Positions 320 through 23,657 of a stretch of 64,000 nt of DNA are shown in pieces. Every line of letters begins with the position of its first letter. Position 1 is the stretch's first letter. A model generated the notes under the pieces. The model was not told where the DNA came from. It saw nothing but the letters and a program-made list of their open reading frames with translations, and ran no database searches. Source of the DNA: Rhodothalassiaceae bacterium. Its GTDB lineage: Bacteria; Pseudomonadota; Alphaproteobacteria; Sphingomonadales; Rhodothalassiaceae. The position numbers and the translations under genes were made by a program. The stretch spans positions 2,181,381-2,245,380 of the forward strand of contig BPKC01000001.1 of assembly GCA_026004935.1 (NCBI GenBank), read 5' to 3'.

Positions 320-2035
320 ATGACGATCTGGACGAGATTGCGGCGGATGCTCCCGCGCGCCGCCCCCCTTGCGGCCGCCGGGCGGCCGCCGGCACGCAAG
401 GACCTTCCCGGCACCGGCGTGCTGTCCTGGATCCCGGGCTGGGACGGCGCCTGGGGCGGGCGCGGGTATGCGGCGCGGGTGGAGACGGGCTACCGGCGCA
501 ACCCGGTGGCCTTCCGCTGCGTGCGGCTGATCGCGGAATGCGCCGCCTCGGTGCCGCTCAGACTCGTGCGCGCCGGCGCGGCGGTGACGCTTCCCGTCCA
601 TGAGCGGCTCCTGCGCCGGCCCAATCCCGCCGTCTCCGGCACCGCCTTCTTCGACCGGCTCTATACCATGCTGCTGCTGGCCGGCGAGGCGTATCTCCTG
701 CGCCTGCCGGAGGAGCGGGCGGACGATCCGCATGAATTCCACCTCCTGCCGCCTGAGCGCATCAGGCGGGAGGGCCGCGGCCGCGGGCCCTGGCCGGCAC
801 GCTACGTGCTGGAGGGCGAGGACGGGCGGCGCGTCTTCGCCCCCGACCCGCTCACCGGCCGCGGCGCGGTGCTGCATCTCGTCGAACCGCATCCGCGCGA
901 TCCGCTCTCGCCGCTTGCGCGCGCGGAGGTCGCGGCGGATGCCGTCGACATCCACAACGCCGCCCAGACCTGGAACAAGGCGCTCTTGGACAACGCGGCG
1001 CGGCCTTCCGGCGCCTTCGTCGTGGAGGCGCGCGACGGCGCACCGGCCAGCCTGTCGGAGGCCCAGTTCGCCCGCCTCAAGGCGGACATCGAGGCCCTCT
1101 TCCAGGGCGCGCGCAACGCCGGCCGGCCGCTGCTGCTCGAAGGCGGGCTCAAGTGGCAGCCGATGGCCTTCTCGCCGGCGGACATGGACTTCATCAACCT
1201 CAAGCACACCGCCGCGCGCGACATCGCGCTGGCCTTCGGCGTGCCGCCGATGCTGCTCGGGATTCCGGGCGACAACACCTATTCCAATTATCAGGAGGCG
1301 AACCGCGCCTTCTGGCGGCTGACCGTGCTGCCGCTGCTGCGGCGGGTGGCCGACGAGCTCACCGCCTGGCTGGCCGACGCCCTGCCCGCCGGCGCAACCC
1401 TCGAGCCCGACCGCGACGAGATCGCGCGCCGCACCGGCGAGCGCGACAGCTTCTGGCGCGAGCTCGATCAGCTCTCCTTCCTCACCGCGGCCGAAAAGCG
1501 CCAACTCGCCGGGATCGAGGGGCTGTTTTCCTCCCGGACGCCGTCAGATCCCGCACCGCACGCGGCCAAAGGGCTTCTTCTGCGGGAACCCACCCGGGAG
1601 GAGCGTAACGGAGTTTGCAACAGGCTTTCTGCAGAACTCTATGCCCTCAACAAGAACGCTGAGGACATCATCGAGACCGTCCTCCGACTGAGCGACGAAC
1701 TTGAAAGGGAAACGGCCGACGCCGATTCCGAGGTTCAAAACGCCCTTCTGAAATTCGTCAAAGACATCGTGGATGGCGCTTTGACTGTTCGAGAGCTGCT
1801 CCAGAACCCGGCATCGATTGCACGATTGGGTACTCTTGCCGCAGGAAGCATCTTCAGCCTGGTATCGCTTATCAGCGCCAATAACGCGGTCTTGCAATAT
1901 ATTCAGCGTAACAGGCGCATCGAAGCCCTTGTCAACGACATTGATTATCATCTGGGAAAATTGAGAGAAATGCGCGATATGGCATTACAGAAATTGAAGG
2001 AAATGCAAAGTATGGGGTGTCCTTTGACTTTCTGA
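320..2035 (+). CDS. GTA-type phage portal protein (g3-like) with a foreign C-terminal extension
   Basis: Residues 1 to about 400 are an HK97/GTA-family portal, the dodecameric ring through which DNA enters the capsid. Family features are a GYRRNPVAFRCVRLIAE segment near residue 55, the central WNKALLDNAARPSGAFV region, and PPMLLGIPGDNTYSNYQEAN. GTA portals normally end shortly after the EKRQLAG motif, reached here near residue 400. The frame instead continues for about 170 residues of unrelated sequence coded by visibly lower-GC DNA, predicted as coiled coil with one hydrophobic stretch (LGTLAAGSIFSLVSLISANN). The normal next gene (g3.5-like) follows only 2.5 kb later. The portal body looks intact. 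Whether the extra tail permits ring assembly is unknown. Confidence 0.85.
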   Translation: MTIWTRLRRMLPRAAPLAAAGRPPARKDLPGTGVLSWIPGWDGAWGGRGYAARVETGYRRNPVAFRCVRLIAECAASVPLRLVRAGAAVTLPVHERLLRRPNPAVSGTAFFDRLYTMLLLAGEAYLLRLPEERADDPHEFHLLPPERIRREGRGRGPWPARYVLEGEDGRRVFAPDPLTGRGAVLHLVEPHPRDPLSPLARAEVAADAVDIHNAAQTWNKALLDNAARPSGAFVVEARDGAPASLSEAQFARLKADIEALFQGARNAGRPLLLEGGLKWQPMAFSPADMDFINLKHTAARDIALAFGVPPMLLGIPGDNTYSNYQEANRAFWRLTVLPLLRRVADELTAWLADALPAGATLEPDRDEIARRTGERDSFWRELDQLSFLTAAEKRQLAGIEGLFSSRTPSDPAPHAAKGLLLREPTREERNGVCNRLSAELYALNKNAEDIIETVLRLSDELERETADADSEVQNALLKFVKDIVDGALTVRELLQNPASIARLGTLAAGSIFSLVSLISANNAVLQYIQRNRRIEALVNDIDYHLGKLREMRDMALQKLKEMQSMGCPLTF

Positions 2036-4878: not shown

Positions 4879-5568
4879 ATGCCGACCGACACCGGATCCA
4901 CGGACCGGCTCACCGTGCCCTTTGCCGCCGAGGCGCCCACGCCGGGCGGCGTGATCGAGGGCTATGCGAGCGTCTTCAGAACCCCCGACGACGGCCGCGA
5001 CATCGTCCTGCCCGGCGCCTTCCGCCGCACGCTCGCGCGCCGCAGCCCGCGCGAGGTGAAGCTCCTGTGGCAGCACGACCCGAAGGAGCCCATCGGCGTC
5101 GTCGAGGAATTGCGCGAGGACGCGCGCGGCCTTCACGTGCGCGCGCGGCTGCTGCCCGCGCTCGCGCGCGCCCGCGAGGCGCTGGCGCTGATCGCCGCCG
5201 GTGCGCTGGACGGCCTGTCCATCGGCTACCGCACGGTGAAGGCGCGCACCGATCCCGAGACCGGCATGCGGCTCATCAGCGAGGTCGATCTGTGGGAGAT
5301 CTCGCTGGTCACCTTCCCGATGCAGCCGGCGGCCCGCATCCGCGCGCTGAAAAGATGCGCGCCGCACCGCGCGCTGCGCCAGTTCGAGACCTTCCTGCGC
5401 GAGGCAGGCGGGTTCTCGCGATCCGAGGCCAAGGCCATCGCGGGCCGCGGCCTTGCCGTGCTCGGCCGGCGCGAGGCCGGCTCCGGGCCCACCGACCCCC
5501 GCGCCTGGGCCGCCGCCGCGCGTGCGGCCCGCGCGCTGATCACCAGCATGAAGGAGAACATGCGATGA
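4879..5568 (+). CDS. HK97-family prohead protease (GTA g4-like)
   Basis: This 229-residue protease of the U35 family is expected to process the major capsid protein during head maturation. The visible catalytic set is His66 in LLWQHD, Ser114 in DGLSIGY and an acidic residue in DLWEISLVTFPM (Glu140). These are the expected motifs in the expected order. An Arg/Ala-rich helical C-terminus follows the catalytic domain. The stop overlaps the capsid start (ATGA at 5565-5568), implying translational coupling. The gene appears intact. Confidence 0.88.
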   Translation: MPTDTGSTDRLTVPFAAEAPTPGGVIEGYASVFRTPDDGRDIVLPGAFRRTLARRSPREVKLLWQHDPKEPIGVVEELREDARGLHVRARLLPALARAREALALIAAGALDGLSIGYRTVKARTDPETGMRLISEVDLWEISLVTFPMQPAARIRALKRCAPHRALRQFETFLREAGGFSRSEAKAIAGRGLAVLGRREAGSGPTDPRAWAAAARAARALITSMKENMR

Positions 5569-6815
5569 CCGCCTTCACCGAGACCACCGAATCCACGCCG
5601 CTCGAGGTCAAGGCCCTCGTCGAGGAGCTGCACCGGCGCTTCGAGGAGTTCAAGGAGACCCACGACGCCGCCGCGCTCGAGGAGCGGCTCAAGGGCCACG
5701 CCGACCGGCTGCTCGAGGAGAAGATGGAGCGGCTGTCGCGCGAGATGAGCCGCATCGAGCGCGAGATCCGCGCGCTCGCCGCCGCCCCCCAGCGCCCCGG
5801 CCTCGACGGGACGGCGGCACGCGGCCCGCAGGACGCCGAATACAAGCGGGCCTTCCTCGACGGCTACGTCCGCCGCGGCCTCGAGCGGCCGCTGAAGGAG
5901 CTGGAGGCCAAGGCGCTCAGCACCGGCGTGCCGGCCGAGGGCGGCTATGCCGTGCCCGAGGAGATCGACCGCCGCATCGCCGCGCTCGCCCGCGAGCTGT
6001 CCCCCATCCGCGCGCATGCGACCGTCGTCCAGGTGGGCTCGGGCGACTTCAGGAAGCTCGTGGCCATCGGCGCGCCGGCCTCCGGCTGGGTGTCGGAGAC
6101 GGCGGCGCGCATCGAAACGGCCACCCCCCAGTTCGCCGAGGTGGCACCCCCCATCGGCGAGATCTACGCCAATCCGGCGGCCACCCAGACGATGCTGGAC
6201 GACTCCTTCTTCGACGTCGAGGCCTGGCTCGCGGGCGAGCTGGCGCGCGAGTTCTCGGCCAAGGAGGGCGCCGCCTTCGTCGCCGGCGACGGCGTGGACA
6301 AGCCGCAGGGGCTCCTGAGCTACCCCACGAGCGCGGCCGATGACGCCTCGCGGCCCTTCGGCACCATCCAGCATCTGGCCACCGGGGTGGACGGCGGCTT
6401 CCCGGCGAGCGATCCGGCGGATCTGCTGGTCGATCTCGTCTATTCTCTGAAGGCGGGCTACCGCACGAACGCCCGATTCCTCATGAACGCCGCAACCCTT
6501 GCCCGGGTACGCAAGTTCAAGGATGCGGACGGCGACTATCTGTGGAAGCCCGGGCTGGAGGCCGGCCAGCCCAGCACGCTGATGGGCTTTCCCGTCGTCG
6601 AGGTGCCGGACATGCCGGACATCGGCCCGGGTGCGCTCGCGATCGCCTTCGGCAATCTGGCCGAGGCCTATCTCGTGGCCGACCGCTTCGGCACGCGGGT
6701 GCTGCGCGATCCCTATTCCAACAAGCCCTTCGTCCATTTCTACGCGACGAAGCGGGTGGGCGGCGCGCTCGTGAATTCCGAGGCCGTCAAGTTCATCAAG
6801 TTCGCGCTGAGCTGA
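5565..6815 (+). CDS. HK97-fold major capsid protein (GTA g5-like)
   Basis: This 416-residue protein forms the icosahedral shell. Residues about 1-100 are a coiled-coil, charged delta domain (LVEELHRRFEEFKET, EEKMERLSREMSRIEREIR) normally removed by the protease. The shell domain starts near the GGYAVPEEIDRRI motif and contains GAAFVAGDGVDKPQGLL, FLMNAATLARVRKFKD and DPYSNKPFVHFYATKRVGGAL, all typical of GTA/HK97 capsids. I chose the ATG at 5565, not earlier codons in the frame, because it overlaps the protease stop and gives the family length. It is intact and is the last left-hand GTA gene before the prophage. Confidence 0.9.
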   Translation: MTAFTETTESTPLEVKALVEELHRRFEEFKETHDAAALEERLKGHADRLLEEKMERLSREMSRIEREIRALAAAPQRPGLDGTAARGPQDAEYKRAFLDGYVRRGLERPLKELEAKALSTGVPAEGGYAVPEEIDRRIAALARELSPIRAHATVVQVGSGDFRKLVAIGAPASGWVSETAARIETATPQFAEVAPPIGEIYANPAATQTMLDDSFFDVEAWLAGELAREFSAKEGAAFVAGDGVDKPQGLLSYPTSAADDASRPFGTIQHLATGVDGGFPASDPADLLVDLVYSLKAGYRTNARFLMNAATLARVRKFKDADGDYLWKPGLEAGQPSTLMGFPVVEVPDMPDIGPGALAIAFGNLAEAYLVADRFGTRVLRDPYSNKPFVHFYATKRVGGALVNSEAVKFIKFALS

Positions 6816-6949: not shown

Positions 6950-7001
6950 TGTACGTCAGCAGAATAAATGGGACACTTCAGCAAAATGAATTGAGACACC
7001 G
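6950..7001 (-). other. Transposon-type end with two tandem transposase-site-like repeats
   Basis: The sequence begins TGTACG and contains two related about 21-bp blocks, CAGCAGAATAAATGGGACAC and CAGCAAAATGAATTGAGAC, in direct order. A TGT terminus followed by iterated sites is how ends of Mu/TnsB-class elements look. It is AT-rich against its surroundings and lies outward of the last prophage gene. I read it as the prophage right end. A solo end of an unrelated Tn7/Tn402-like element is the main alternative. No inverted mate was seen near 36.5 kb. Confidence 0.55.
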
Positions 7002-7177: not shown

Positions 7178-8446
7178 TCACGACCTATCTGCCGCGACGA
7201 ACGAGTAGCCCGCCGTTGTGCTGATCACCAGAGATGTATTGCTTTTGGGCCGGGCCTCCAAGGTGATCGTGCCGTTCGTGAATGCGAGCTCACCGGGATC
7301 AAGGGCCTGCGAAAGCGACCCTTGCACTATGAGCTTCTGCCAGCCTGCGATCCATGATCCGATGTTGAGCGGCGTGTTGTTGTTGTCGGCGAGCCAGTAG
7401 CCCACAGATATCTTGGGGCTCGTCTGATCGGGCGTTACGGTCCAGCGGAATTCGACGTCATCAAGTCCGCCGACAGAGAGCTCGGCGTCAGAGTCGGTAT
7501 ACCACGCAAGCTGTTTGAAGTTTCCCTCCACCGTAGTGAGAGTTCCATGCTTGCTGCTTGGCTCTTGCACCCACTTCCATTCCGCCGCCGCGCCGAGAAG
7601 CTGTGAGAGGCTGATCGGCGGCGAGACCGGCACGGAGTTGTTGGCTGAGATGTCCGGCACATAGGTCCCGCCTCGGACATAATCCGTCAGGTGTGCAGGC
7701 GGATCGGAATAGGGCGTCTTGTATGGGCCGAAGAGGCGGCGGACATCGCCTCGCAGTTTGAGCGGGAAAGACGACGGCAGGTAAATCAGCGGAGCCGTGG
7801 AGTCCGCCTTCGTGGTGATTGACCACGTATCTGTTACTCCTCCTATGTTCAGCGTGGTGCTTACAGTGGTGCTGAAGGAGGTCGATGCGGTCATCTTCAG
7901 CCGCACAACATCGCCCTGATTGACGGTGCCGGACGCGGTTGTCCACGCCCCGTCATTGACCTGATATTCTCCGGAACCAGAGATGCTGATCGAGGTCGAA
8001 CCACCTATGCCGGTCACCGTGATGTAGTTGGAGTAGTGAGTCGTTTCACGCCCAACCCCCGTCAGATCAACGAAAGTGAATGGATCGGGCGTGGTATCAA
8101 CGACATTGACATCGACCTGAATCGTGGGGCGGGAGCTTGTCAGTGTCTCCTTGACGCATTGATCCTGCGCATTGAACATCCCCCACTCGTCAAAGGTCTC
8201 GACCCCGTAGATGTAGCTCCCGTCGGCGACGGTTTCGGAGTAAGAGGTCCGGCCGTTCGGAGACTGATGATTGGCAGTGCGGGTTTCCGACCAGATCGAG
8301 ACGCCATTACGATACACCCGCCACGTCCGATGCGGGTAATCGTAGGGCGACGGCTGGCACTCATTCAGGGGGAGCGAGGTATTTGTCCACGTGAGCGTCA
8401 CCGTATTGCCTGAGACGGAAGCGGCGAGATTGCTTATGCCCATCAC
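7178..8446 (-). CDS. Prophage tail-associated / receptor-binding protein
   Basis: This 422-residue, beta-rich, Ser/Thr/Asn-rich protein is the last gene of the late operon. Its start overlaps the end of the large fiber gene by 4 bp, indicating coupling. The N-terminus (MMGISNLAASVSGNTVTLTWTN) resembles a fibronectin-type strand pattern, and the remainder looks like repeated beta-sandwich domains. Codon use and GC (about 55-58%) differ from the phage head genes, as expected for an exchangeable host-range module. I do not recognise a specific family. Its role as an accessory fiber or tip protein is inferred from position and composition. Confidence 0.55.
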   Translation of the reverse strand: MMGISNLAASVSGNTVTLTWTNTSLPLNECQPSPYDYPHRTWRVYRNGVSIWSETRTANHQSPNGRTSYSETVADGSYIYGVETFDEWGMFNAQDQCVKETLTSSRPTIQVDVNVVDTTPDPFTFVDLTGVGRETTHYSNYITVTGIGGSTSISISGSGEYQVNDGAWTTASGTVNQGDVVRLKMTASTSFSTTVSTTLNIGGVTDTWSITTKADSTAPLIYLPSSFPLKLRGDVRRLFGPYKTPYSDPPAHLTDYVRGGTYVPDISANNSVPVSPPISLSQLLGAAAEWKWVQEPSSKHGTLTTVEGNFKQLAWYTDSDAELSVGGLDDVEFRWTVTPDQTSPKISVGYWLADNNNTPLNIGSWIAGWQKLIVQGSLSQALDPGELAFTNGTITLEARPKSNTSLVISTTAGYSFVAADRS

Positions 8447-11400
8447 AACCCTCCCGCCGCCAGTCTGGCTTCGATGGCATCCAATCTCGCCTTCTGCTGA
8501 TCGATCTGATCCTGCTGCTCCTTGATCGCCTCGATCAGCAGCCCGACGACCGCGCCGTAGTCGATGGTCAGGATGCCATCGCCACGCTCATGCACGACCT
8601 CGGGAAGATAGGGCTGGACCTCTTGCGCTATCAGGCCGATCCGATCAGGTCCCTGCGGATTACCAGACACACCCTTCCATTGGAATTTGACGCCTCGGAG
8701 CTGAAGCAAAGTCGAGAGGGCATCCGTGATGGTGCGGATATTCGTCTTCAGGCTTTCGTCTGATGTGGCAGTGACCTCCACGCCTGTGATAGTGCCTTGG
8801 ACGTCAAGAAGATCACCCTTCAGTATGGCAGTCTTCCTGCCGGCCCAGCCGCTGCCCCAGTTGTCCGGCGACGAGTTGACTTCGAGCCCGCCTTCAGCGT
8901 TGATATAGACTGCTTCTCCCGTCTGGCCGGTCGCGTAGCTGTGGGACTCACCGGCGTTGATGACGACCTGCTGGCCGCCAGACGCCGCCCCGCCGCGGAT
9001 TTCCTTGCACTCAAGAAAGGAATCGATGCGGGCTGTGCCGCCTACGTGAAGTTTGCTTGATGGCGACGACGTCCCGATGCCTACGTTGCCCCCGAGAAGC
9101 CAGCTCGTGCCGCTCGTGTGAAGTTGCACGCTGGTCGTGCCGGACGCCGCTTTCATGTTCAGCAGCGCGTTGCCGTTGGCGTCTGTCTGAAGTCCGGAAG
9201 TCCCGCCGCCGTTGTTCAGTCGGACATACCACCTGTTTGTGGTGTTGCCCGTGCAGTCGATCATGCCGCCGTTCAGGGTCAGGACGCCGCCGGTATAGGT
9301 GGCGTTGGAGTCTGCCCGCAGGAACTGCGAGCTTTCCAGTCCGTCCAATTTGTCCGCATCGAGCCCGGAGCCGGCCCCGTCATTGCCGGCGTGCCATACC
9401 AGATTCCAGTTGGAGCCGTCCCACAGCTCGATCTTTGTGGCAGAGGGCGTTGAGCCGCTGACGTAAAAACGAAGACAATCGACCGTCCCGTTCGCCGAAT
9501 TTGCTGACCAATAGTGGTGGCCAGCCCAAGCGGTGTGGTAATAGCGCCCGAACCATGTGCCGTTATATAGGACGCCGGAATACACAAAAGCGCCATTTGA
9601 CGTACGCCAGAGCGTCTTGTAGTCGGTTGAGCTTGTTCCGCTCGTATCGGAGCGCAAATCAAGCGGACCATCAATGCGGGCATCTCCAGCCACGTGGAAG
9701 GCCGCCGAAGGGGCGCTAGTGAAGACGCCGACCTTATCCGCCTTTAGCGTCAGGGTTGGAGTACCGCTTGTCGTATTCACCCTCACGGCCAGCATCTGCG
9801 AGCTGTTGCTGAACTGCGTGAAGAAGCCGTCGTCGGTATCGAACAGCGTAAGCTGACTGTGCGCCCCCCTGATTGAACAGTGTGAGGAGTCTCTATCTGG
9901 CGAGTTGTTGACCTGTAGCGCCCCGGCGCTCAAACTGACGACGCCCCCTTCCGCGTTCAGGTTAAGAGCGGAGACGGCCCCGTTGTTCCGGGCCATGATC
10001 TCATTGTTGTCGATGGCAACATTCGCTCCTGTGTCGGAACCGACCTGAAACCCGTGCAGAGTGGATGTGGCGCTCAGGTCGCTACCGGTTGTGATGCGCA
10101 ACCGCTCAACAGTCAGAGTGCCGGCGGCGCTGATGTCCGACGGGCTGTGCGTATGCGCCGCCGGCGTGAAGGTGCTGGGCTTGCCGGTCACCTCTGACCA
10201 TGTCGGCCAGCGTGTAGCCGTGGCGGGAGCATTGCCGTCATGCCAGACCTTGTAGGTCCCGGAGGGCGTCGACAGAGACCAGCGGTCGTTCGCCTCGTCC
10301 CAATAAAATTTTACGTTGATCTGGTTGCCGCGTTCGATCTCGATGCCCGCATCCAGGGTGGGCGCCGAGGTGTCCGGCAGGCCGGCGTTGAGCCTTACGA
10401 TGTTGTCGCCGATGTCCACCTGCCGGGAGCTGACGGTCACGAGATTGCCCGAGACGGTCAGATCTCCACTTACCGCCAGATTGCCGGTGATCGTGCCTCC
10501 CGTGACGGGAAGATAGGTTCCGCCCGTGCCCTGCTGCGCACTCGTGCCCGAGACCACGAAGCCGCCGCCGGTGTTGTCCGTCAGCGTCAGCTCGCGCCCG
10601 ACCGGCCGCGAGCAGGTCACCCGGTATTCCCACATCCCCGCGGGGACCGTTTCCGTGGCGGCGACTTCCAGGCCGTTTTCCGCAACCACGACGTCATAGG
10701 AAATCGTGATCGTCCCGCCGCCGAGCCGCGGCTCGGGGTCAGTCAGATCGATGCTGGAGACCTGGTACTGCCCGGCCCCCGGCGAGGTGCTCGTCTTGGT
10801 AAAAGTTGCGGTGGCCACCTGCGTCCATGTCGAGCCTCCCACCTGGCGGCGCTGGATCGTCAAAGTGACGGTCGAGGGGTAGGAACCCGCGGGCGCAGTG
10901 GTTCTGTTCTTCAGCGAAATCGTCGCCCTGGCCGTGACCGAGGACTGGACCGTGAGCTCAACCTGCTTGATGTCGTTGTCGTCGGCACAGGAGACGACGT
11001 AGGGGTTGATCCCTATTGGTGCGGATTCCGCCGCTTGCGTCTGCGCGAGGCCGGTAAACTTCGTGCCGTCGAAGACGAGATTGCCCGCCGCATCGTAGAT
11101 TTCGGGAGCGATCAGCTTCGCCTTGCCTGCAGAATCGACGCAGAAGGGTGCGTCCTGCGGCGTTTCCGCACCAACCCACAGCCGAAAGCCGGACCATACG
11201 GCGTCATTGCCGGAGATGTGGATGGGATTGGTGGAGCCGATTTCGACCTTCGTCGTTTTGCGCAGGGCGTCGCCTACGACGACGTCGGCGCTTAGGTCGG
11301 AGATCGCCGTGATCCGGTCCTTGAAGCCCAGCGCCTTTACGCCGAGACCACTTGCCGTCGCCCGCCCCAGCACGGTGCCGGTCGCAATCTTCAGCGTCCC

Positions 11401-12519
11401 GTCGTTCTGAAGCACGAGCATGTCGTTGCGGATCTTGTCCGCCGGCAGCGTGATGCCGCTATCCTTCAGATGCCCGGCGGCGATGTCCACGTCGTCCCGA
11501 TCCGCCAGCAGGCCGGTGTTGAGTGAGCCGACCTCGATCCATGCCGAGCCGTCCCAGCGCTTGAGGCGCTTCGCAGTGGTGTCATACCAGAGATCGTTGA
11601 GGGTCGGCTCCGCGGGTGCGCTCGCTTGGACGACGACGCGGCTCTTGGTTGCTCCGGCTTCCACGCCGTCCAGCTTGCTGCCGCGCACCGGGTCGAGCTC
11701 CAGCAGGTTCGCGGGCGCGCGCTTCACCCACTGGTTGCTCTGGGCATCCCACTGATACCAGACGGGCGGGATGCCGTCGCCAGGATCGTCGAGGATGAGA
11801 AGCTGGCCGTCGTGCGTGCCCTGGGCCGGCAGCTGCGCCACCGTGATGTCCTTGACGAGCAGCATCGTGTTGCTGACAGGTGTACCGTCGGGCAGCGTCA
11901 CGTTGCCGGTGCCCGTGCCGTCGTCCACCACGGCACCCTTCGTGGCCCCCGGCTCGGCGGGCCGCAGCGCCTCGACCGGCGTGCCGTCGGCGTAGGGGAT
12001 GTCGCCGGCGGCGCGGGGTACGCGGTCGCGGGCCTGGATGACGACCGGCGAGTAGCCACCGAGCGTGCCCTCCCAGGTCTCCGCGCGTACACGCCAGTGC
12101 CAGGCCGCGTCGTCCTCCACCGGCAGATAGAGCTTGGCTCCCCTGGTCCGTCCCTTCTCGCTCCAAGGGCCGGTCGCGCCTGGCGCCCGCTCGACCACAT
12201 AGACCGTGTCCGGCCGATTGTCGGCCGGAATGTCCCACTCCACCGTCACCCCGTCGGGCGACGGTGTCGTGGTGATCGTCGTGGGCGGGCTCGGCACGAC
12301 GCTGACGCCGCCCACGGTCACCGTGACCGGCACCCATGCGCTCGCCTGCCCGTCGGCGCCGATGGCGCGCGCCTCCACGTCATACGCCACGCTGCGGTCG
12401 AGGCCCGTCAGCGTGATGGCCGGCCCGTCCGAGGCGGCGAAGCGCCGCGTCCGCCACGGCGCGCCGGAGCCCGTGGGGCGCCATCTCACGTCGTACGCCG
12501 TGATCCTGCCGCAGGCCAT
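8443..12519 (-). CDS. Tail fiber with Fn3-like N-terminus and C-terminal S74 chaperone
   Basis: This 1358-residue protein sits directly after the tail-tip gene. The N-terminal 250 residues look like two fibronectin type III modules (ITAYDVRWRPTGS, PSPPTTITTTPSPDGVTVEWDIP). The middle is long, repetitive and beta-rich with several VWHDGN/VWHAGN repeats common in phage fibers. The C-terminus is an intramolecular chaperone of endosialidase (peptidase S74) that trimerises and self-cleaves: the ATSDESLKTNI cleavage region, then IGLIAQEV, LTIDYGAVVGLLIEAIKEQ and a closing coiled coil. The part from about 8.4 to 11.6 kb is lower in GC, suggesting acquisition of the receptor-binding part. The frame is intact. 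Confidence 0.8.
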   Translation of the reverse strand: MACGRITAYDVRWRPTGSGAPWRTRRFAASDGPAITLTGLDRSVAYDVEARAIGADGQASAWVPVTVTVGGVSVVPSPPTTITTTPSPDGVTVEWDIPADNRPDTVYVVERAPGATGPWSEKGRTRGAKLYLPVEDDAAWHWRVRAETWEGTLGGYSPVVIQARDRVPRAAGDIPYADGTPVEALRPAEPGATKGAVVDDGTGTGNVTLPDGTPVSNTMLLVKDITVAQLPAQGTHDGQLLILDDPGDGIPPVWYQWDAQSNQWVKRAPANLLELDPVRGSKLDGVEAGATKSRVVVQASAPAEPTLNDLWYDTTAKRLKRWDGSAWIEVGSLNTGLLADRDDVDIAAGHLKDSGITLPADKIRNDMLVLQNDGTLKIATGTVLGRATASGLGVKALGFKDRITAISDLSADVVVGDALRKTTKVEIGSTNPIHISGNDAVWSGFRLWVGAETPQDAPFCVDSAGKAKLIAPEIYDAAGNLVFDGTKFTGLAQTQAAESAPIGINPYVVSCADDNDIKQVELTVQSSVTARATISLKNRTTAPAGSYPSTVTLTIQRRQVGGSTWTQVATATFTKTSTSPGAGQYQVSSIDLTDPEPRLGGGTITISYDVVVAENGLEVAATETVPAGMWEYRVTCSRPVGRELTLTDNTGGGFVVSGTSAQQGTGGTYLPVTGGTITGNLAVSGDLTVSGNLVTVSSRQVDIGDNIVRLNAGLPDTSAPTLDAGIEIERGNQINVKFYWDEANDRWSLSTPSGTYKVWHDGNAPATATRWPTWSEVTGKPSTFTPAAHTHSPSDISAAGTLTVERLRITTGSDLSATSTLHGFQVGSDTGANVAIDNNEIMARNNGAVSALNLNAEGGVVSLSAGALQVNNSPDRDSSHCSIRGAHSQLTLFDTDDGFFTQFSNSSQMLAVRVNTTSGTPTLTLKADKVGVFTSAPSAAFHVAGDARIDGPLDLRSDTSGTSSTDYKTLWRTSNGAFVYSGVLYNGTWFGRYYHTAWAGHHYWSANSANGTVDCLRFYVSGSTPSATKIELWDGSNWNLVWHAGNDGAGSGLDADKLDGLESSQFLRADSNATYTGGVLTLNGGMIDCTGNTTNRWYVRLNNGGGTSGLQTDANGNALLNMKAASGTTSVQLHTSGTSWLLGGNVGIGTSSPSSKLHVGGTARIDSFLECKEIRGGAASGGQQVVINAGESHSYATGQTGEAVYINAEGGLEVNSSPDNWGSGWAGRKTAILKGDLLDVQGTITGVEVTATSDESLKTNIRTITDALSTLLQLRGVKFQWKGVSGNPQGPDRIGLIAQEVQPYLPEVVHERGDGILTIDYGAVVGLLIEAIKEQQDQIDQQKARLDAIEARLAAGGL

Positions 12520-12527
12520 GCCTCACC

Positions 12528-15053
12528 TCATCGCAGCTGCTCGCGACCGAACCAGCGCACCCCGCCCACGGGAGGCGTGTGGCCGGCGGGCGGCGGCACA
12601 TGCACATGTACGCTCGGGCTGGTGTCACCCTGATCGGTGCCGTCGTCATGCTGCTGGTCGCTGATCACCACGGTGATCTGGGGCGCACAGGGCGGCGGGC
12701 TGAAGCGGCGGCCCGTGATCTGGCTGGTCACCGCGGCAGGCGGATCGGCCCAGTACTGGGCCACCTCCGGCCTGTATTCCACCGCGCGGATGCGCGCGCC
12801 GAGATCCTCGATGGGTTCGACGGCGGTGATCAGCAGATCCATGACATCCCGCGTCGTCTCGCCGACGACGAGGATGTCGCCCGGGCCGACGCCGGCCGGC
12901 GGCGCGGCGGCGAGCGTGAGCGTGTGCTCGTCCACGATCGCGCTCACGGCCGCCGTCCACTCCGGCCCGCCGTCGCCGGGGCGGATGCGCACGCTGTAGC
13001 TGGTCTGCGGATCGAGTGCCAGCGTCTCGTCGATGCTCACCTGCTGCCCGGAGATGCCCGTGATCCGGCCCCAGGCGTCGCCCCACTCGGTCACGTCATG
13101 GGCCACCCGGACCTTGTCCCCCCTCAGACAGGTCAGCGCCGCCACGTCCGTCTCCCATTCATACACGGTATGGCGGAAGCGGGCCTGGGCGAGGTGGAAC
13201 CGCGCCACCTGCCAGGCCTGGATGGGGTCCGTCACGGCCTTGAGCTCCAGCGTCTCGAATTCCGTGGCCTCGGGGTCGCTGGTGGGATTGCCACGCGCAT
13301 CCAGCCCGGCGACGGCATGGCCGTCGTCCGGCACCAGAATCTCGTCCACCTGCCAGTCGGCGGCCGCATTTACGAAGCGCACCCGCAGCGCGTGCGGCCG
13401 GCGCGGGAAGGGGCGGGAAAGACGGAATCCGCGCATCTCCAGCGGCGTGAACAGCTGCGCGGTCAGCTGCTGGCCGTCGTCCCAGATCACCGTATAGCGG
13501 CCGTCCCGGATCGCCAGCGCGCCGAGACCGGCACCCAGCACCTCGTCCACCACCTCCCTGAGCGGCCGGCGCTGATCGAGAACCAGCGAGGCGCCAAGTC
13601 CCTGCTGGTCGCACCAGGCGGCGAAGGCGGCGAAGGCGTCGAGATCCATGCGCGCGGCCGGCACATGGATGCTGACCGAAGGTGCCTGGGTCAGCAGCCA
13701 CCAGGCGAGCCAGGCCGGATTCCGGCTGGCCCGGGTGGTCCAGGTCTGCGTCGCGGGATCATAGACCGGCACCTGCTGCTGCACGCGGCAGCTGACGGTA
13801 TCGAGCACGCCCTCCAGCTGGTCACTGGCGCGGATGCGCAGCGCGAGCTTGGTGGTCCCGGTGGTGCTCGGGTTGCCCTTTCTGATGCCGCGCAGCACCG
13901 ACCAGGCGAGATCGCCGATCTGATTGGGCGAATCGCTGCCGTCCCAGTCGGTCGCGATCCGCCGCACGCGCACGTCATACTGCCCGCGCGTCACCCCCCA
14001 GCTCACGGCGGCCGCAAAGGGGCGCTGATCCTGCCCCGTCACGCGCCACTGTCCGCCCGCGTATGCGATGCTGCTTGCGCGCGCGGTGACACCGGCGGTC
14101 ACCGTCCCCGGAGCGGGCGCTGCGGTCCAGCCCGTGCCGCCCGCGGGCCGGTAGTCGATGGCGAGCGTCACGGCGGGCCGCTTGCGCTTGCCCTTGTTCG
14201 TGAGGCCGAACAGTCCGCGCGGGAACAGCAGATCGAGGCTGATCTCGTCGACGTCTGGGCTCGTCGTGCGGATCACCTCGTCGCCGTCGGCGTTGAGAGC
14301 CGCGCCGATCTGCACCTCCGCGACGTCGTCGCGATAGAGCGTCGGGCTGGTCGTCACCTCCCACTCGACATCCTCGTATTGCGCGATCGGCGTGTCGCCG
14401 ATCTTGAGATCGCTCACCACGAGATCCCCATGCCCCAGATCCAGCAGCACATGCTGATACTGCTCGTCGCCGAGCGTCTCGGTGTAGGGGATCGCGGCAT
14501 GCGCCGGGAAGAAACGCATCTCGCCCAGCACCTGCGGGATCGGGCCGTAGGGCAGCAGCTGGTTGCGGCTGCCCGTCAGCTGATGGAAGCCGCGCGCCGG
14601 CTCGTCTGGCTTCGGCGGCGGCGGCGGGATCAGGGCATTGATGGCGAGGGCGCCCAATGTGACGAGGGCCCCTTGGATGAGCAGAGTCCCAAACCGGCCG
14701 GCCACCCCGAGGAAGTTGGCGAGTGTCGACCCATAGGCGTTCGCCGCCGCAATGACGGCAATCATAAGCACCGTGCGCAGGATCTTCTTGCCCGTGCGCC
14801 CGGACGGCCGGCCGGTCACCCTGATCACGGACTCCGGCCCCGGCCGCAGGCGTGTCCAGGCCTCGCGCGGCACCGCGCGACCGTCCACCTCCACGATCAG
14901 GGCGTCCGATATCCCCGCGCCGGCCGCCGCGTGCTGCAGCATTTCCATGATCGTCAGCCCGGCCGGCACCGGCACCACCCCCGCATCCGGCACCAGCGGA
15001 TGCGGCCTGAGCCACAGATGCTGCCGGCCGCACCGCCCCTCACAGCGCGACAT
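12528..15053 (-). CDS. Tail tip attachment protein J-like (host specificity)
   Basis: This 841-residue protein of the lambda-J/TipJ type forms the distal baseplate hub of siphophages. An N-terminal domain is followed by a hydrophobic patch (IAAANAYGSTLANFLGVAG ... LVTLGALAINALIPPPPPKP). Then come the conserved entry LTGSRNQLLPYGPIPQVLGEMRFFPAHAA and HVLLDLGHGDLVVSDLKIGDTPI, and hub domains with WLLTQAPSVSIHVPAARMDLDAFAAFAAWCD. The start overlaps the peptidase gene by 14 bp. No frameshift was seen. It is the bridge between tail tube and fibers, and with the fibers sets host range. Confidence 0.82.
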   Translation of the reverse strand: MSRCEGRCGRQHLWLRPHPLVPDAGVVPVPAGLTIMEMLQHAAAGAGISDALIVEVDGRAVPREAWTRLRPGPESVIRVTGRPSGRTGKKILRTVLMIAVIAAANAYGSTLANFLGVAGRFGTLLIQGALVTLGALAINALIPPPPPKPDEPARGFHQLTGSRNQLLPYGPIPQVLGEMRFFPAHAAIPYTETLGDEQYQHVLLDLGHGDLVVSDLKIGDTPIAQYEDVEWEVTTSPTLYRDDVAEVQIGAALNADGDEVIRTTSPDVDEISLDLLFPRGLFGLTNKGKRKRPAVTLAIDYRPAGGTGWTAAPAPGTVTAGVTARASSIAYAGGQWRVTGQDQRPFAAAVSWGVTRGQYDVRVRRIATDWDGSDSPNQIGDLAWSVLRGIRKGNPSTTGTTKLALRIRASDQLEGVLDTVSCRVQQQVPVYDPATQTWTTRASRNPAWLAWWLLTQAPSVSIHVPAARMDLDAFAAFAAWCDQQGLGASLVLDQRRPLREVVDEVLGAGLGALAIRDGRYTVIWDDGQQLTAQLFTPLEMRGFRLSRPFPRRPHALRVRFVNAAADWQVDEILVPDDGHAVAGLDARGNPTSDPEATEFETLELKAVTDPIQAWQVARFHLAQARFRHTVYEWETDVAALTCLRGDKVRVAHDVTEWGDAWGRITGISGQQVSIDETLALDPQTSYSVRIRPGDGGPEWTAAVSAIVDEHTLTLAAAPPAGVGPGDILVVGETTRDVMDLLITAVEPIEDLGARIRAVEYRPEVAQYWADPPAAVTSQITGRRFSPPPCAPQITVVISDQQHDDGTDQGDTSPSVHVHVPPPAGHTPPVGGVRWFGREQLR

Positions 15054-15474
15054 GGCGGTACACCCCCTCCAGCCGGCGCGCCCATGCCGGGCTGGAGATA
15101 TCCTCGATGCGGCTCGTCCCGCCGCGGCCGCCCGGTCCCGGCTCCGGCGCGTGCAGAAAGCGCCGCGCGTCCACCATCACGCCCATGTGCCGCGGCCGCG
15201 CGCACACGCGGAAGACGACGAGATCGAATGCCCGCGGCCGCTCGGCCGCCCTGAGCGGCCGCCAGTGCCGCGGCAGCCGGGCGGCGATCCCGGTCGCGAT
15301 GCCGGCATGGTCGCCGCCGCCGGCGTAGTCGCCCGCATAGGACGGCATCACGATCCCGGCCTGCTCGGCGAGCACCAGGCGGATCAGCCCCCAGCAGTCG
15401 ATGCCGTCGCGATCGCGTCCCAGATCGCGATACGGGATGCCGATATACCGCTCCGCCCAGTGCATCTGCATCAC
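15040..15474 (-). CDS. NlpC/P60-type tail peptidase
   Basis: This 144-residue cysteine peptidase is of the lambda-K type, thought to cut peptidoglycan during DNA injection. The catalytic Cys27 lies in GIDCWGL, His96 in RHMGV, and His108 follows in FLHAP, the usual Cys-His-polar order. A second Met at position 3 is an equally good start. The gene overlaps both neighbours by a few bases. It is distinct from the GTA peptidase at 38916, so the locus carries two tail peptidases from two different particles. Confidence 0.8.
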   Translation of the reverse strand: MMQMHWAERYIGIPYRDLGRDRDGIDCWGLIRLVLAEQAGIVMPSYAGDYAGGGDHAGIATGIAARLPRHWRPLRAAERPRAFDLVVFRVCARPRHMGVMVDARRFLHAPEPGPGGRGGTSRIEDISSPAWARRLEGVYRHVAL

Positions 15475-15950
15475 GCGAACATCCCCGCGCTGTTGCCGGG
15501 CGTGTAGGTCTGGGCCGGCACCGCCTGGTCCAGCAGCGCCTCCTCGTGGCCCAGCGTGATGTCCAGTGCGAGCGCGTCCGCCTCCACGCTGCGCACGCTC
15601 ATCACCCAGGGGCCCGCCTCCACGAGGTCCGGCTGGCTGGCGAGCACCACCTCGATCGTCACCGTCGGCGGGCCGTCCAGCGCCCGGATGGCGGCCAGCA
15701 CCTGCCGGTCGATGTTGTCCACACGCAGCCGCACCTGCGGCTCGGCGGCATCCGAATCCTCCGGCAGGACGGCCTCGAAGGGATAGGGATCCCAGGTGCC
15801 GCCGCTGCGCACCACGGGCTCGGTGTCGTTCGCGATGCGGATCGGCTGGACGAGCGAGGGATGGTCGATCGTCACCAGCACGACGAAGACCTCCTCGCTG
15901 TCGGAGGCGAGGATGGCCTGGGCGGCGGTCGGGCTCAGCACGCGCGGCAT
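15471..15950 (-). CDS. Minor tail protein, DUF1833 family
   Basis: This 159-residue protein has the family signature of an N-terminal VLVTIDHPSLVQPIRIAND strand pattern and a central RLRVDNIDRQVLAAI. DUF1833 proteins occupy the lambda-L position in Mu-like siphophages, between the M-like minor tail protein and the tail peptidase, exactly as here. It is probably part of the distal tail. It is intact. Confidence 0.72.
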   Translation of the reverse strand: MPRVLSPTAAQAILASDSEEVFVVLVTIDHPSLVQPIRIANDTEPVVRSGGTWDPYPFEAVLPEDSDAAEPQVRLRVDNIDRQVLAAIRALDGPPTVTIEVVLASQPDLVEAGPWVMSVRSVEADALALDITLGHEEALLDQAVPAQTYTPGNSAGMFA

Positions 15951-15960
15951 CGGCGGCTCC

Positions 15961-16314
15961 TCATGGCAGAATCTCGAGCGGCAGGCTCACCTGCCACCAC
16001 GGCCCGCCGAGCGGGGTGATCTGCGGCGGCGCGCGGAATCGCCAAGTGGCCGGCGGCTCCGCCGGATCGCGCCAGTCCCGCCACGTGAACGTCCCGGCCT
16101 CGCCCAGCGTGTCGCGATACCAGGTCAGAAAGGTCGCCAGCTCCGCCTGCGTCATCAGCATCTGCAGATCGGCTTCCTCCGCCACCGCCGAATACCGCCG
16201 GCGCTGCTTCGCCACGCCGGCCTCGAACGTCGTGCGGATGACGTTCGAAGCGCGCACAAACCGCGCTCCTTCGCGCAGGGGACGCTGGGGCAGACCGGCG
16301 GGCCAGCTCGTCAT
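15961..16314 (-). CDS. Minor tail protein (lambda-M-like position)
   Basis: This 117-residue protein lies between tape measure and the DUF1833 protein. Sequence such as LATFLTWYRDTLGEAGTFTWRDWRDP and the closing WWQVSLPLEILP match small distal-tail proteins that follow tape measures in siphophages. The fold assignment is by position and general look. It starts 5 bp after the tape measure stop. Confidence 0.65.
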   Translation of the reverse strand: MTSWPAGLPQRPLREGARFVRASNVIRTTFEAGVAKQRRRYSAVAEEADLQMLMTQAELATFLTWYRDTLGEAGTFTWRDWRDPAEPPATWRFRAPPQITPLGGPWWQVSLPLEILP

Positions 16315-16318
16315 CGCC

Positions 16319-19300
16319 TCAACCTCTCGTCCCGGCCGCGGGCGTCAGCCCGAACCGGCCCTGGATGGCGCGGCCGGTGGAGCCCATCTGGGCGATCCGG
16401 CGGTCCACCTCGCTCACCGCGGCATCGATGATGACGCGGATGATCCGCCCGCCATCGGGTCCATCCTGCTCCTCCACGCGCGCCGGCGGCCCGCCGTTGT
16501 TCTCGACGATCACGGTGACCGGCGCGCCGGCCGCGCGCGCCTCCACGCCGAGCCGCCCGTCCGGCCCGCGCCTGAGCGGCAGGATCGCCTCGGGCCCGGC
16601 CTCGCCCATCAGCCCCAGCCCGCCGCACGCGAAGCGCGTGGCATAGCGGAACAGCGTCGGCCGGTCGACGACCCGGCCGCTGTGATCGCTGATGGTGCCG
16701 CCCGCAACGACGGCACCCCTCGCCGCTATGAGCTGACCGAATCCGGCGGAGGGGCGCGTGCTGGCCGGCTTCGCGGGGGCGGGCCCTCCAAACAGCCGCT
16801 GCAGTGCCGTCGCCAGCGGGCCGATGATCGCTTGGCGGATGGCGAGCCGCGCCAGATCGGCGAGGATCGAATCGACGAGATCCCGGAAGCTGAGCTTGCC
16901 GGTGGTCACGAACTTGACCAGCGCGTCCTCCATGCCCTGGAAGGCGTCCTGCACCGTGCGCCGGGCCAGCTCGAACTGTTGTCCGGCCTCGCCGGCGACG
17001 TCGGCCAGCCCCGCGCGCAACCCGCCGAGCACGCCGCTCTGCTCGCCGGCCTGCAGCAGCTCGGCGATCTGCAGCCTGAGCCCCTCCAGCGCCTGCCGCT
17101 GCTGCGGGTCCGTGACGGCGCGCGCGAGCGCCTCGATCTGGGGGATGAGCTCGCTGCGCAGCGTCTCCGCTTGGCGGCTGATCTCGCGCCGCACGCGCGC
17201 GCGGGCCTCGGCCTCGCTCTCCAGCCCCAGCCGCACGCGCGCATCCGCCGCCTGCTCGATCTCCGCGATCAGCCGGCGTGCCGCGTCGATGCGGCCGCGG
17301 ATGTCGCTGATGGCCTCATCCGCCACATCGCCGACGGTCCGGGATGCCACCCGCTCGCGCTCGCGCATCAGATTGGTGAGGTCGGCCCCGAGCCGCGCGA
17401 TCTCGGCCTGCGCGCGGGCGCGGGTGTCCGCATCCGCGGCATCGAGCAGCGCGCTCTCGCGCTCGATGGCGCGCTCGGTGGCCGCGATCTCCTCGTCCAG
17501 CGCCTGCAGCCGCAGCGCCGTGCGGCGGCGGAAGAACTCGGCATACGAGATCAGCCGCCGGTCCAGAGACTGCTGCAGCATCTCCTCGGCCCGCCGCTGA
17601 TCGGCCTCGCGCACACGCCGCGCGGCCTCGTCGTCGGCCGCCGCCAGCTCGCGCGCGCGCCGGGCCTCCTGGGCCTCCTCTTCGGCCAGCACCTTCGCGC
17701 GCACCGCCGCCTGGGCAGCCGCGATCTCGGCCGGGCTCTTGCCGGCCTGCCGCCCGAGCTGCGCGATGCGCTGCAGCTCACCCTTGAGCCGCTCCTCGCG
17801 GGTCCTGAGCCCCGCGATCAGCTCGTCCCACTGCCGCAGGGCGAGCTCGCGGGCGATATTGCCGCCGGCGGCCGTCTCCTCGTCGGCACGATCCAGCGCC
17901 GCGCGCAGCTCGGCCAGCTGCCGCTGCAGCTCGCGCCGGCGCGCCTGGATCGCGGCATCGCCGATGGGCAGCAGCCCGCGCCGGATGCGCGCCTCGTTCT
18001 GCGCCTGGATGCGCGCGGCCTCCTCATCGAGTCTGCGCAGCTCGCGCTCGATATCGGCGATGCCGGCGCGCAGGATGCCCGCCTCGCCGCCGCCGAACCG
18101 GCCGCGCTGCCCGATCTGCCGGGCGATATCCAGCGCCGCTTCCCGCGCGCGGGCACCAGCATCTTCCGCGCGCCGGCCGTACAGCGCCCAGGCGGCCGCG
18201 CCCGCGGTGACGAGCGTCAGCACCAGTCCCAGCGGCCCGCCCGCCAGCGCCAGTGCGCGGCTGGCGATGCCGGCGGCGACCCCGGTGCCCGCGAGCGCCG
18301 CGTTGTAGGCGGCCTGCGCCGCCGCCAGCCGCTGCTGAGCCGGGATGACCGCACTCTCCACCGCGATCAGCCGTGCCATGCCGCTGGTCGCGGCCGCCGC
18401 CGCCTGGGCAGCCGCCAGCTCGGCCTCCGCATAGGAGACGACGAGCCTGAGATGCTCCGCGCGCACCAGCGCCGCCTGGCGTTCGGTCGCGATCTCGGCC
18501 GCCAGCTGCCGCACCCGCGCCCAGCCGGCCGCCGTCAGCACGCCGATCTGCCGGCCCAGCAGCCCCACACCGATGACCGCGACCGTGCCGAGCACGGTCC
18601 CGAGATGCGCCGCCAGCGCGTCCAGCGATCGCACGAGGGCGTCGGTCACGCCGCCGGCATTGGCCACCTGATCGATCCACGCACTGAAGGCGTTGCGCGC
18701 CGCCTCTACGGCCTGGCCCACCGTGCGCGGCATCGCGGCCGCCTCGCGGCGCAGCGTGGCGGCCTGGGCCGCGAGCGCGCGCACCACCAGCCCGGTCGTC
18801 AGCTGGCCCTGCTCGGCCATGGCGCGCAGCTCGCCGACCGTCACGCCCAGCGCCTCGGCCAGCGCCAGCGCGATCCGCGAGCCGTTCTCCATCACCGCCC
18901 GGAACTCGTCGCCGCGCAGCACGCCGGAGGCCAGCGCCTGGCTCAGCTGCAGGGTGACGGAGGCGGCCTCGGCCGTGTTGGCACCCGAGATCCGGAGCGC
19001 GTCGACCACCGCGCCCGTCACCGTCGCGATGTCGCGCATGTCTATGCCGAGCTGACGCGCGCCGAGGGCGAGCCGCGCATAGAGCTGCGCGACGGAGGCA
19101 TACGCGACGCCGCTGCGCTGCGCGATCTCGAGCGCCTCGGCCTGGGCGGCGGCGAAGGCCCGCTGGCTGCCCGCCGCCTGGCGGAGCCGCGCATTCACGA
19201 GCCGGATCTCGTCGGCCGTGCGCACCGCCTCGCGGGCGAGGCGGCCGATCTGCAGCACCCCGAAGGCGCCGACCGCCTGTGAGCGCATGCGCTCCAGCGC

Positions 19301-19402
19301 CCGGCTGATGCTCTCCACCCCGGCCCGCGTCCGCCCGAGCGCCTTGCTCGCGCGGTCATCCGCGACTATCTTGAGTCCGACGACGAGACTGGAGCCGGCC
19401 AT
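16319..19402 (-). CDS. Tape measure protein
   Basis: This 1027-residue protein sets tail length and is expelled at infection. The N-terminal 250 residues carry the tape-measure N-terminal domain (LVNARLRQAAGSQRAFAAAQ, ALRISGANTAEAASVTLQLSQALASGVLRGDEFRAVMENG). A hydrophobic segment lies near residues 370-410 (GVAAGIASRALALAGGPLGLVLTLVTAGAAAWALYG), followed by long Ala/Glu/Arg-rich coiled coil. A C-terminal domain contains LSFRDLVDSILADLARLAIRQAIIGPLATALQRLFGG, typical of the family. At about 0.15 nm per residue, the ruler predicts a tail near 150 nm, which is an inference. Confidence 0.88.
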   Translation of the reverse strand: MAGSSLVVGLKIVADDRASKALGRTRAGVESISRALERMRSQAVGAFGVLQIGRLAREAVRTADEIRLVNARLRQAAGSQRAFAAAQAEALEIAQRSGVAYASVAQLYARLALGARQLGIDMRDIATVTGAVVDALRISGANTAEAASVTLQLSQALASGVLRGDEFRAVMENGSRIALALAEALGVTVGELRAMAEQGQLTTGLVVRALAAQAATLRREAAAMPRTVGQAVEAARNAFSAWIDQVANAGGVTDALVRSLDALAAHLGTVLGTVAVIGVGLLGRQIGVLTAAGWARVRQLAAEIATERQAALVRAEHLRLVVSYAEAELAAAQAAAAATSGMARLIAVESAVIPAQQRLAAAQAAYNAALAGTGVAAGIASRALALAGGPLGLVLTLVTAGAAAWALYGRRAEDAGARAREAALDIARQIGQRGRFGGGEAGILRAGIADIERELRRLDEEAARIQAQNEARIRRGLLPIGDAAIQARRRELQRQLAELRAALDRADEETAAGGNIARELALRQWDELIAGLRTREERLKGELQRIAQLGRQAGKSPAEIAAAQAAVRAKVLAEEEAQEARRARELAAADDEAARRVREADQRRAEEMLQQSLDRRLISYAEFFRRRTALRLQALDEEIAATERAIERESALLDAADADTRARAQAEIARLGADLTNLMRERERVASRTVGDVADEAISDIRGRIDAARRLIAEIEQAADARVRLGLESEAEARARVRREISRQAETLRSELIPQIEALARAVTDPQQRQALEGLRLQIAELLQAGEQSGVLGGLRAGLADVAGEAGQQFELARRTVQDAFQGMEDALVKFVTTGKLSFRDLVDSILADLARLAIRQAIIGPLATALQRLFGGPAPAKPASTRPSAGFGQLIAARGAVVAGGTISDHSGRVVDRPTLFRYATRFACGGLGLMGEAGPEAILPLRRGPDGRLGVEARAAGAPVTVIVENNGGPPARVEEQDGPDGGRIIRVIIDAAVSEVDRRIAQMGSTGRAIQGRFGLTPAAGTRG

Positions 19403-19547
19403 GTCCGCCCTCGATTACATCCTGCTGCTCGTCGGGCTCTTCGCGGCCGGCCTGATCTGGCCGTGGGTGTGGCCCGCCGCGATCCCTCTCGCCGTCATCG
19501 GCTTCTGCCTTCTCGGCTCAGCGCGAGGAGAGTCTCGCGCTCCATGA
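19401..19547 (+). CDS. Possible 48-residue two-helix membrane protein, antisense
   Basis: A short plus-strand frame starts at the CATG that also holds the tape-measure start on the other strand. It has GGAG six bases upstream. It encodes two hydrophobic helices around a WPWVWP turn (YILLLVGLFAAGLIW and AIPLAVIGFCLLG) and a short charged tail. Such a strongly hydrophobic product is unusual for random antisense frames here, but the overlap makes chance quite possible. Confidence 0.22.
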   Translation: MSALDYILLLVGLFAAGLIWPWVWPAAIPLAVIGFCLLGSARGESRAP

Positions 19548-19824
19548 GGCATATCGCCTCCCACATCCGCGCGCGGTCGCGGATGCCGGCCATCTCGATC
19601 GCCGCGGCGACGCCCGCGTAATTCAGCCCCGTGGGCTGACCGGCCGGGTCGATGCGCCACTGCGTCTGGACGGCCAGCCACATCTGCACGGCCGCGACAT
19701 TCTCCGGCCAGATCTCGAGCGCCGGCTCGCTCTCCGCGATCCGACCCGCGTCGAGCCCGAAGGCGGCCGCGGCCTCCGCCGTCTCGTCCCGGCCGCGCCG
19801 GGCGACGAGCGCCCGGGCGACCAC
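19495..19824 (-). CDS. Tail assembly chaperone -1 frame extension (DUF1799-like, T of G-T)
   Basis: This frame of about 109 residues contains EIWPENVAAVQMWLAVQTQWRIDPAGQPTGLNYAGV, the DUF1799 signature. It lies in the -1 frame of the upstream tail chaperone and has no convincing ribosome binding site of its own. The heptamer A AAA AAC just before the upstream stop would join the two frames. I read it as the T part of a G-T fusion made by programmed frameshifting, as in lambda-like phages. If made separately it would start at the GTG at 19822-19824. Confidence 0.72.
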   Translation of the reverse strand: MVARALVARRGRDETAEAAAAFGLDAGRIAESEPALEIWPENVAAVQMWLAVQTQWRIDPAGQPTGLNYAGVAAAIEMAGIRDRARMWEAICLMERETLLALSREGRSR

Positions 19825-19826
19825 GA

Positions 19827-20171
19827 TCAGTTTTTTCGGGCGCCCTCGCCGCTGTGTGCGGCAAACCAGGCCTGAATGAGGGCCGGCACGACCTCCGGGA
19901 TATCAATGAGGCGATCCAGTGCATCCCGCGAGAAGGCGAGCGCGCCGCCGTCGGCATCCTGCACATCCCGCCAGTCGAGCACGACCTCGTGCAGCAGCCC
20001 GTCATCATCGAGCTCTCCCGTCGTCAGCCGATCGGCGATCGAGCGGAACTCGGCGCGGCCCACGCGGCGCAGCCGCACATGGAAGCGGTGGGTCCGCCGC
20101 CTGCCCGTCTCGTCCGGCAGCGAGACGTCGACGGGCATCCACACGGCATCCGGCGGGGCCAGGGTCAGCAT
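19827..20171 (-). CDS. Tail assembly chaperone (G-like)
   Basis: This 114-residue protein lies between tail tube and tape measure, the invariant place of siphophage tail chaperones that coat the tape measure during assembly. It has an N-terminal beta part (VWMPVDVSLPDETGRRRTHRFHVRLRR) and a helical C-terminus (ALDRLIDIPEVVPALIQAWFAAH). It ends in a slippery sequence that would yield a longer product by a -1 shift into the DUF1799 frame. Confidence 0.72.
   Translation of the reverse strand: MLTLAPPDAVWMPVDVSLPDETGRRRTHRFHVRLRRVGRAEFRSIADRLTTGELDDDGLLHEVVLDWRDVQDADGGALAFSRDALDRLIDIPEVVPALIQAWFAAHSGEGARKN
19830..19836 (-). other. Slippery heptamer A AAA AAC for -1 translational frameshifting
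   Basis: On the minus strand the upstream chaperone reads CGA AAA AAC TGA. A -1 slip on A AAA AAC continues into CTG ATC GTG GTC GCC, the DUF1799 frame. The heptamer is in the correct phase, and the stop of the zero frame follows at once. Confidence 0.7.
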
Positions 20172-20183
20172 CCATCACGCTCC

Positions 20184-21313: not shown

Positions 21314-21325
21314 TTCGGTCTCCCG

Positions 21326-21736: not shown

Positions 21737-21753
21737 CCGCCGTCCCCTTCCGA

Positions 21754-22334: not shown

Positions 22335-22345
22335 CGGCTGTTCCC

Positions 22346-23656: not shown

Positions 23657-23657
23657 C

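Follow-up and report, generated by a model that had tools for sequence, protein, structure and literature searches.

A decayed Mu-like prophage with one recognizable end inside the gene-transfer-agent cluster of a Rhodothalassiaceae bacterium

What becomes of a transposable phage that retains its transposition genes and shows only one of its ends? The question is raised by the window, the whole stretch of 64,000 nucleotides of Rhodothalassiaceae DNA analysed here, in which a Mu-like prophage lies within a gene-transfer-agent (GTA) structural cluster, directly after the capsid gene, and stops on its right side inside the GTA gene g13 (Table 1). Mu transposition requires the pairing of both ends. 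A preliminary description of the locus noted a single end with two tandem repeats, and suggested that the loss of the other end alone separates an otherwise intact, permanently trapped phage from mobility. The account that we favor, and hold to be probably correct, goes further. A Mu-like siphophage would have inserted into the GTA cluster, with its right (R) end still in place and its early operon directed outward, and one deletion would have removed the left (L) end together with neighboring genes of both phage and GTA, leaving a grounded, decaying prophage. The element is mostly an ordinary wreck of a known kind, and an instructive one.

Table 1. Features of the prophage and its GTA flanks (window coordinates)
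Feature	Position	Strand	Basis
GTA-side portal gene	320..2035	+	Phage_portal / TIGR01537
GTA-side major capsid gene (HK97), left flank; ORF as listed, true start further in	5067..6815	+	Phage_capsid / TIGR01554
R end of Mu-like prophage, TGT and two tandem ~22-bp transposase-site-like blocks, inward-reading	6950..6999	+	motif score; RcapMu attR1/attR2 annotation; G398 R end
Late block, tail fibre to lysis genes	7178..32295	-	PHROGs families for seven genes; Mu-like phage homologues
Mu F-like head morphogenesis gene, frame change ~26828-26843	26423..27337	-	three relatives match in two frames
Portal (DUF935-like), frame change ~28585-28592	27312..28809	-	two relatives match both parts, in different frames
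Terminase large subunit, frame change ~29107-29112	28791..30317	-	five relatives match in two frames
Repressor c (S24 peptidase fold, HTH)	32446..33117	-	family matches
ner-like regulator, ORF as listed, start uncertain	33030..33374	+	similarity to RcapMu ner region
MuA transposase, open, DDE residues kept	33371..35497	+	DDE_2, HTH_Tnp_Mu_2, Mu-transpos_C
MuB, open	35517..36476	+	Phage-MuB_C, AAA_22; 65% identical to L063
88 bp between MuB stop and GTA homology, without element end (no ACA terminus)	36477..36564	+	
Hybrid ORF, 24 residues fused in frame to g13 (baseplate hub) without its first 88 codons	36493..37137	+	TIGR02218; alignment to G001
GTA g14-like NlpC/P60 gene	38916..39500	+	family match below NCBIfam cut-off
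GTA g15 "megatron", C-terminal part	40196..42439	+	Rcc01698_C; NF048004 positions 759-1298 (below cut-off)

The end at position 6950

As the preliminary description stated for 6950–7001, TGTACG (6950–6955) is followed by two related tandem blocks. Block 1 (TCAGCAGAATAAATGGGACAC, 6956–6976) and block 2 (TCAGCAAAATGAATTGAGACAC, 6978–6999) have 18 letters in common and differ by three mismatches and a gap of one base. Allowing up to three mismatches, block 2 has no other match in the 64-kb window and none in 100 shuffles, and a degenerate form of the block has one exact match in the whole genome, with one more weak site ~1 Mb away when up to three mismatches are allowed. Tandem similarity by itself is within chance: in two scans of the window for a TGT with any two similar blocks behind it, the sites at 33061 and 45391, respectively, equalled or exceeded the tandem score of 6950. 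The 6950 site stands above chance because a motif derived from a relative scores there, not because of tandem similarity. This motif, modelled on the IMG/VR phage record G398, consists of TGT and GATTTGAGACA ending at base 26, repeated ~22 bases further on. The 6950 site scores 20/25 and the runner-up in the window 15; among 200 simulated 64-kb windows, the mean best score was 16.1 and 20 was reached once. The two cores in the window end at bases 26 and 49 counted from the TGT. The site has the GTA capsid gene directly on one side and the outermost phage tail gene on the other; it is oriented toward the phage, 179 bp from the last tail gene.

There is evidence for the same layout in related phages, whose ends the preliminary description had proposed to consult. 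The R end of G398 (locus L061, position 330) has TGT with GATTTGAGACA at 26 and again at +22. At the record ends of RcapMu, RcWaterboi, RR1-B and YPCBV-1, a repeated core ends at base 26 from the TGT and again 22 bases on, and the annotation of RcapMu (NC_016165) gives attR1 and attR2 as two adjacent ~22–24-bp repeats at the tail end, with a single attL1 at the left. The layout is not universal, because among seven complete phage R ends those of Aussie, StopSmel and phiSHP3 fail the tandem-geometry scan, and the end core is absent from the records G396, G400 and L062. A tail protein J query, used to locate R ends in seven IMG/VR records, had no match. Five stretches of viral contigs match the block motif; none has a TGT or a tandem block in the flank inspected, and they were set aside as chance.

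Given its model score, its RcapMu-like layout and its core in the ends of relatives, the 6950 site is confirmed, on sequence grounds, as the genuine tail-side end of a Mu-type phage, and the earlier assignment to the Mu class holds. The same motif (TGT, with a TTGAGACA core at 26 and ~48) defines the end of a little-described clade of Mu-like siphophages and should aid in finding their borders. Could the blocks instead be a lone end from a Tn7-, Tn402- or IS21-like element that has nothing to do with the prophage? Such elements also have TGT ends with short repeats. However, the core and its spacing fit the ends of phages with related MuA, the end faces the phage at short range, and the adjoining gene is a phage tail-fibre-like gene, with neither a transposase of its own beside the end nor a second copy of the end nearby. 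A BLAST search with the end against 72,556 plasmids returned only four short chance matches at E 5, and a search against 50,697 phage records returned none. We therefore regard a solo element, which the preliminary description had named as an alternative, as extremely improbable.

RcapMu and G398 are also informative for the element as a whole. RcapMu is a Mu-like siphophage with homologous capsid, portal, tail J, ner and repressor genes; unlike the window prophage, it has the canonical gene order, both ends and a site core of TTCCGGACG rather than TTGAGACA, and its MuA is only distantly similar (27% over part of the protein). G398 is closer, with 50–55% identity in MuA and 63% in terminase. 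It differs from the window prophage in its canonical order, and no L end was seen within the extent of its record. Three further IMG/VR loci, L059, L060 and L063, have MuA proteins 58–60% identical to that of the window (for L059 and L060 over the core region) and MuB proteins 59–65% identical. In contrast to the window, early and late genes share a strand in L060 and L063; in L059, no late gene is seen.

Search for a second end

Candidate L ends in two of these relatives, L060 (position 570) and L059 (position 1340), consist of TGT and a single ..TTGAGACA core at base 26 upstream of the repressor genes, which is the location expected for L ends. Neither expected border in the window has such an end. 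On the right, there is no ACA in 36477–36564 and no minus-strand TGT in 36436–36700; to the left of the repressor, the sole TGT (32342) lacks a core. On the opposite strand, no match in the window is better than 15/21 for block 1 and 14/22 for block 2, both of them in unrelated places. Across the genome, a search for TGTCYCA-N15..17-ACA found the known R1 and three other places, the inspected flanks of which contain no phage-like end (one place is, by eye, the housekeeping gene ispG), and a search for TGTCTCAAATC-N14..16-ACA had no match. Opposite-strand, motif and border searches thus bear out the preliminary description, which had seen no inverted mate near 36.5 kb.

The genome-wide check for an inverted copy came out less cleanly: none was found by motif, but on a single-core L model R1 itself scores only 10/14, and several places reach that level by chance. 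Because a lone diverged core can be near chance level, the absence of the L end rests mainly on the two expected borders. This low score is the one point in favor of a reading in which the L end is present, too diverged to be seen, and the element is complete. Against it stand not only the two borders but also the loss of Gam, GemA and Mor, and such a hidden end is very unlikely. With no end inverted relative to the R end, the element is a defective remnant rather than a complete member of the Mu-like transposable phages, and the failure to find a mate supports the earlier view that it could not transpose as a unit. The flank that would carry the second copy of a 5-bp target duplication has been lost.

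Prophage genes and their decay

Is the prophage otherwise intact? Its transposition genes appear to be. MuA, MuB, ner and repressor are all in open reading frames, as had been reported; the three domain families of the MuA-type DDE transposase and the two of the MuB ATPase (Table 1) all score above cut-off; and the MuA catalytic residues D271, D336 and E388 are invariant across 15 sequences. MuA is present in a single copy in the genome (E <= 1e-40). Mu-type head genes are present as well, with capsid (phrog_1005), portal (phrog_113) and terminase, but three genes of this group—terminase, portal and the F-like gene—are frameshifted. Gam, GemA and Mor have no homologue in the window, and the same queries do match in the related phage record G396. 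A whole-genome search with the GemA family had no match, and neither did its controls. The 88 bp after MuB have no significant similarity to the post-MuB genes of two relatives (L063 and L059).

To judge from its frameshifted terminase, portal and F-like genes, the prophage is a decayed remnant, and its late genes have apparently begun to decay. The idea that one lost end is all that separates this prophage from a working phage therefore does not stand: the middle genes are missing and head genes are broken. A prophage with a single R end and no further MuA copy in the genome, whose middle genes are missing and whose head genes are broken, should be unable to transpose as a unit or to make particles.

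The broken GTA cluster and a proposed history

The prophage is flanked by genes of an RcGTA-type cluster. Portal, capsid, g13, g14 and g15 occur in order, with g13 truncated and g14 and g15 below NCBIfam cut-offs. The capsid region (window 6089–6817) is 79% identical to contig L039 of the same-genus genome G001, where an intact cluster has portal, capsid, g13 hub (matched through its C-terminal part), NlpC and g15 in the same order. Compared with L039, the window is missing ~8 kb, a stretch that begins downstream of g5 and extends to g13 codon 88. In L039, the distance from the capsid stop (13642) to the g13 codon that matches window 36564 (5645) is 8.0 kb, an interval that contains connector, tail completion, tail tube, tape measure and distal tail genes. 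Connector, tail tube and tape measure are absent as judged from the window gap relative to L039, and the distal tail gene as judged from a genome search. The latter gene was found in 8 of 11 genomes searched (all six other family members and two of the four others of the order); the misses are the genome of the window itself, G007 and G010. Since the distal tail gene was not found in the genome, the GTA stretch appears, on the evidence of this one gene, to have been lost rather than displaced. When the genome was searched with the 8 kb of GTA DNA, in a search with no positive control, nothing matched. A GTA without its connector and tail genes should make no particles. Phage and GTA are both very probably dead.

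In L039, the ORF at 5919–8312 was considered as the tape measure and ruled out, the family search identifying it as a distal tail protein with DUF2460. In this bacterial family, the GTA distal tail protein (797 aa) has a TIM-barrel tail-sheath domain ahead of DUF2460. The window g15 ORF is ~750 aa long, and of the 1299 positions of the megatron model it covers only the C-terminal 540, as though one gene had passed the barrel to another.

At the right junction, residues 24–209 of the hybrid ORF match TIGR02218 positions 66–251 of 266 (E 4.6e-51). Its first 24 residues, compared with the post-MuB genes of L063 and L059, give scores that shuffles reach in 27% and 51% of cases. A ribosome-site-like GGAGGAG is found ahead of its ATG. 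Because the join creates so unusual a hybrid gene, an assembly error might be suspected, in which case both L end and GTA would be intact in the real genome. However, the genome is 100% complete in two contigs, neither the distal tail gene nor an L end was found anywhere in it, and the hybrid ORF keeps its frame; there is little chance that the junction is an artefact.

How might this arrangement have arisen? The repressor–ner–A–B block is directed away from the late genes, which is rare among relatives. A and the late genes are on one strand, with the late genes downstream, in 44 of the 46 informative IMG/VR loci (of 80) with related MuA, the exceptions being L064 and L094, and A and the late genes share a strand in all 10 informative records (of 12) of a separate set. 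L094 (G396) was dropped as a precedent for the window order, since Mor and then the late genes are on the same strand and only the terminase genes are flipped. In this locus, the terminase genes are on the opposite strand, to the left of the repressor, and Mor and sheath genes follow MuA and MuB on the other strand.

The order in the window is so unusual for the MuA clade that inversion followed by deletion is a serious rival. The phage may have had the usual Mu gene order on arrival, with repressor–ner–A–B inverted afterwards in the lysogen, before or with the deletion, making two events rather than one. Besides the 44 of 46 loci, the closest relatives (L060, L061 and L063) speak for such a sequence of events, as they too have the same-strand order. 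Yet outward early genes occur naturally. Stenotrophomonas phage phiSHP3 (MT872956), whose capsid protein is 43% identical to that of the window, has mor, gemA, B and A directed outward, and its regulator, lysis and late genes run in the other direction. Unlike the window prophage, it is complete, with TGT at both record ends, and it is absent among the 40 matches listed for the window MuA. An excerpt of the report on phage KS10 (PMC2628397) describes its first ~17 kb as inverted relative to Mu. Fewer events are required if the order was present on arrival. Inversion in the lysogen is accordingly a tentative possibility.

On the account with a single deletion, a Mu-like siphophage would have transposed into the intergenic space that follows the capsid gene (g5) in the RcGTA-type cluster, with its R end on the left. 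Its early operon (ner–A–B and onward) would on arrival have been directed rightward to the L end, in a phiSHP3-type order. One later deletion would then have taken the end of the early operon (with Gam, GemA and Mor), the L end and the ~8 kb of GTA up to g13 codon 88; loss of phage genes and loss of GTA genes are both explained by one deletion across the phage/GTA border. The hybrid ORF would have been left behind, and the late genes would then have decayed. With the L end gone, MuA could not pair two ends, and the unit would be grounded. Several findings count against this account: the rarity of the phiSHP3-type order, the lack of an assignment for the 88 bp after MuB, the R-end layout not being universal, the near-chance score of a lone diverged L core, and the uncontrolled DNA search for the GTA stretch.

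What are the implications? First, the locus may represent a natural double knock-out, in which a transposable phage was grounded by the loss of its end and a GTA cluster was broken by the same event. Second, a prophage within a GTA cluster fits reported neutral-rate transposition. In the part of a Citromicrobium study that bears on this (PMC12486242), GTA-like genes are described as being hit by Mu-like transposition at a neutral rate, and active competing prophages as hot spots. GTA clusters are, according to an extract of another report (PMC9836097), usually under purifying selection. Among the literature matches listed, which do not extend to subscription papers, none describes a Mu-like prophage that has settled within a GTA cluster. 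Third, it is conceivable, if rather doubtful, that a Mu-like phage ended a GTA lineage by insertion and by deletion from within, and that the host, while the late genes decay, retains an open repressor–ner–A–B block, perhaps because it protects against superinfection by related transposable phages.

The GTA regions on both sides of the prophage share a 31-bp palindromic repeat, GTCATCCGCCGGCTTGACCGGCGGATCCAGC, with 18 copies (up to three mismatches), all on the plus strand, in 3372–4255 and 37250–40110. Eight copies are to the left of the prophage and 10 to the right, with none between. Second, partial sets of GTA-like tail genes are present in two same-family genomes (G003:C14 and G005:C6).
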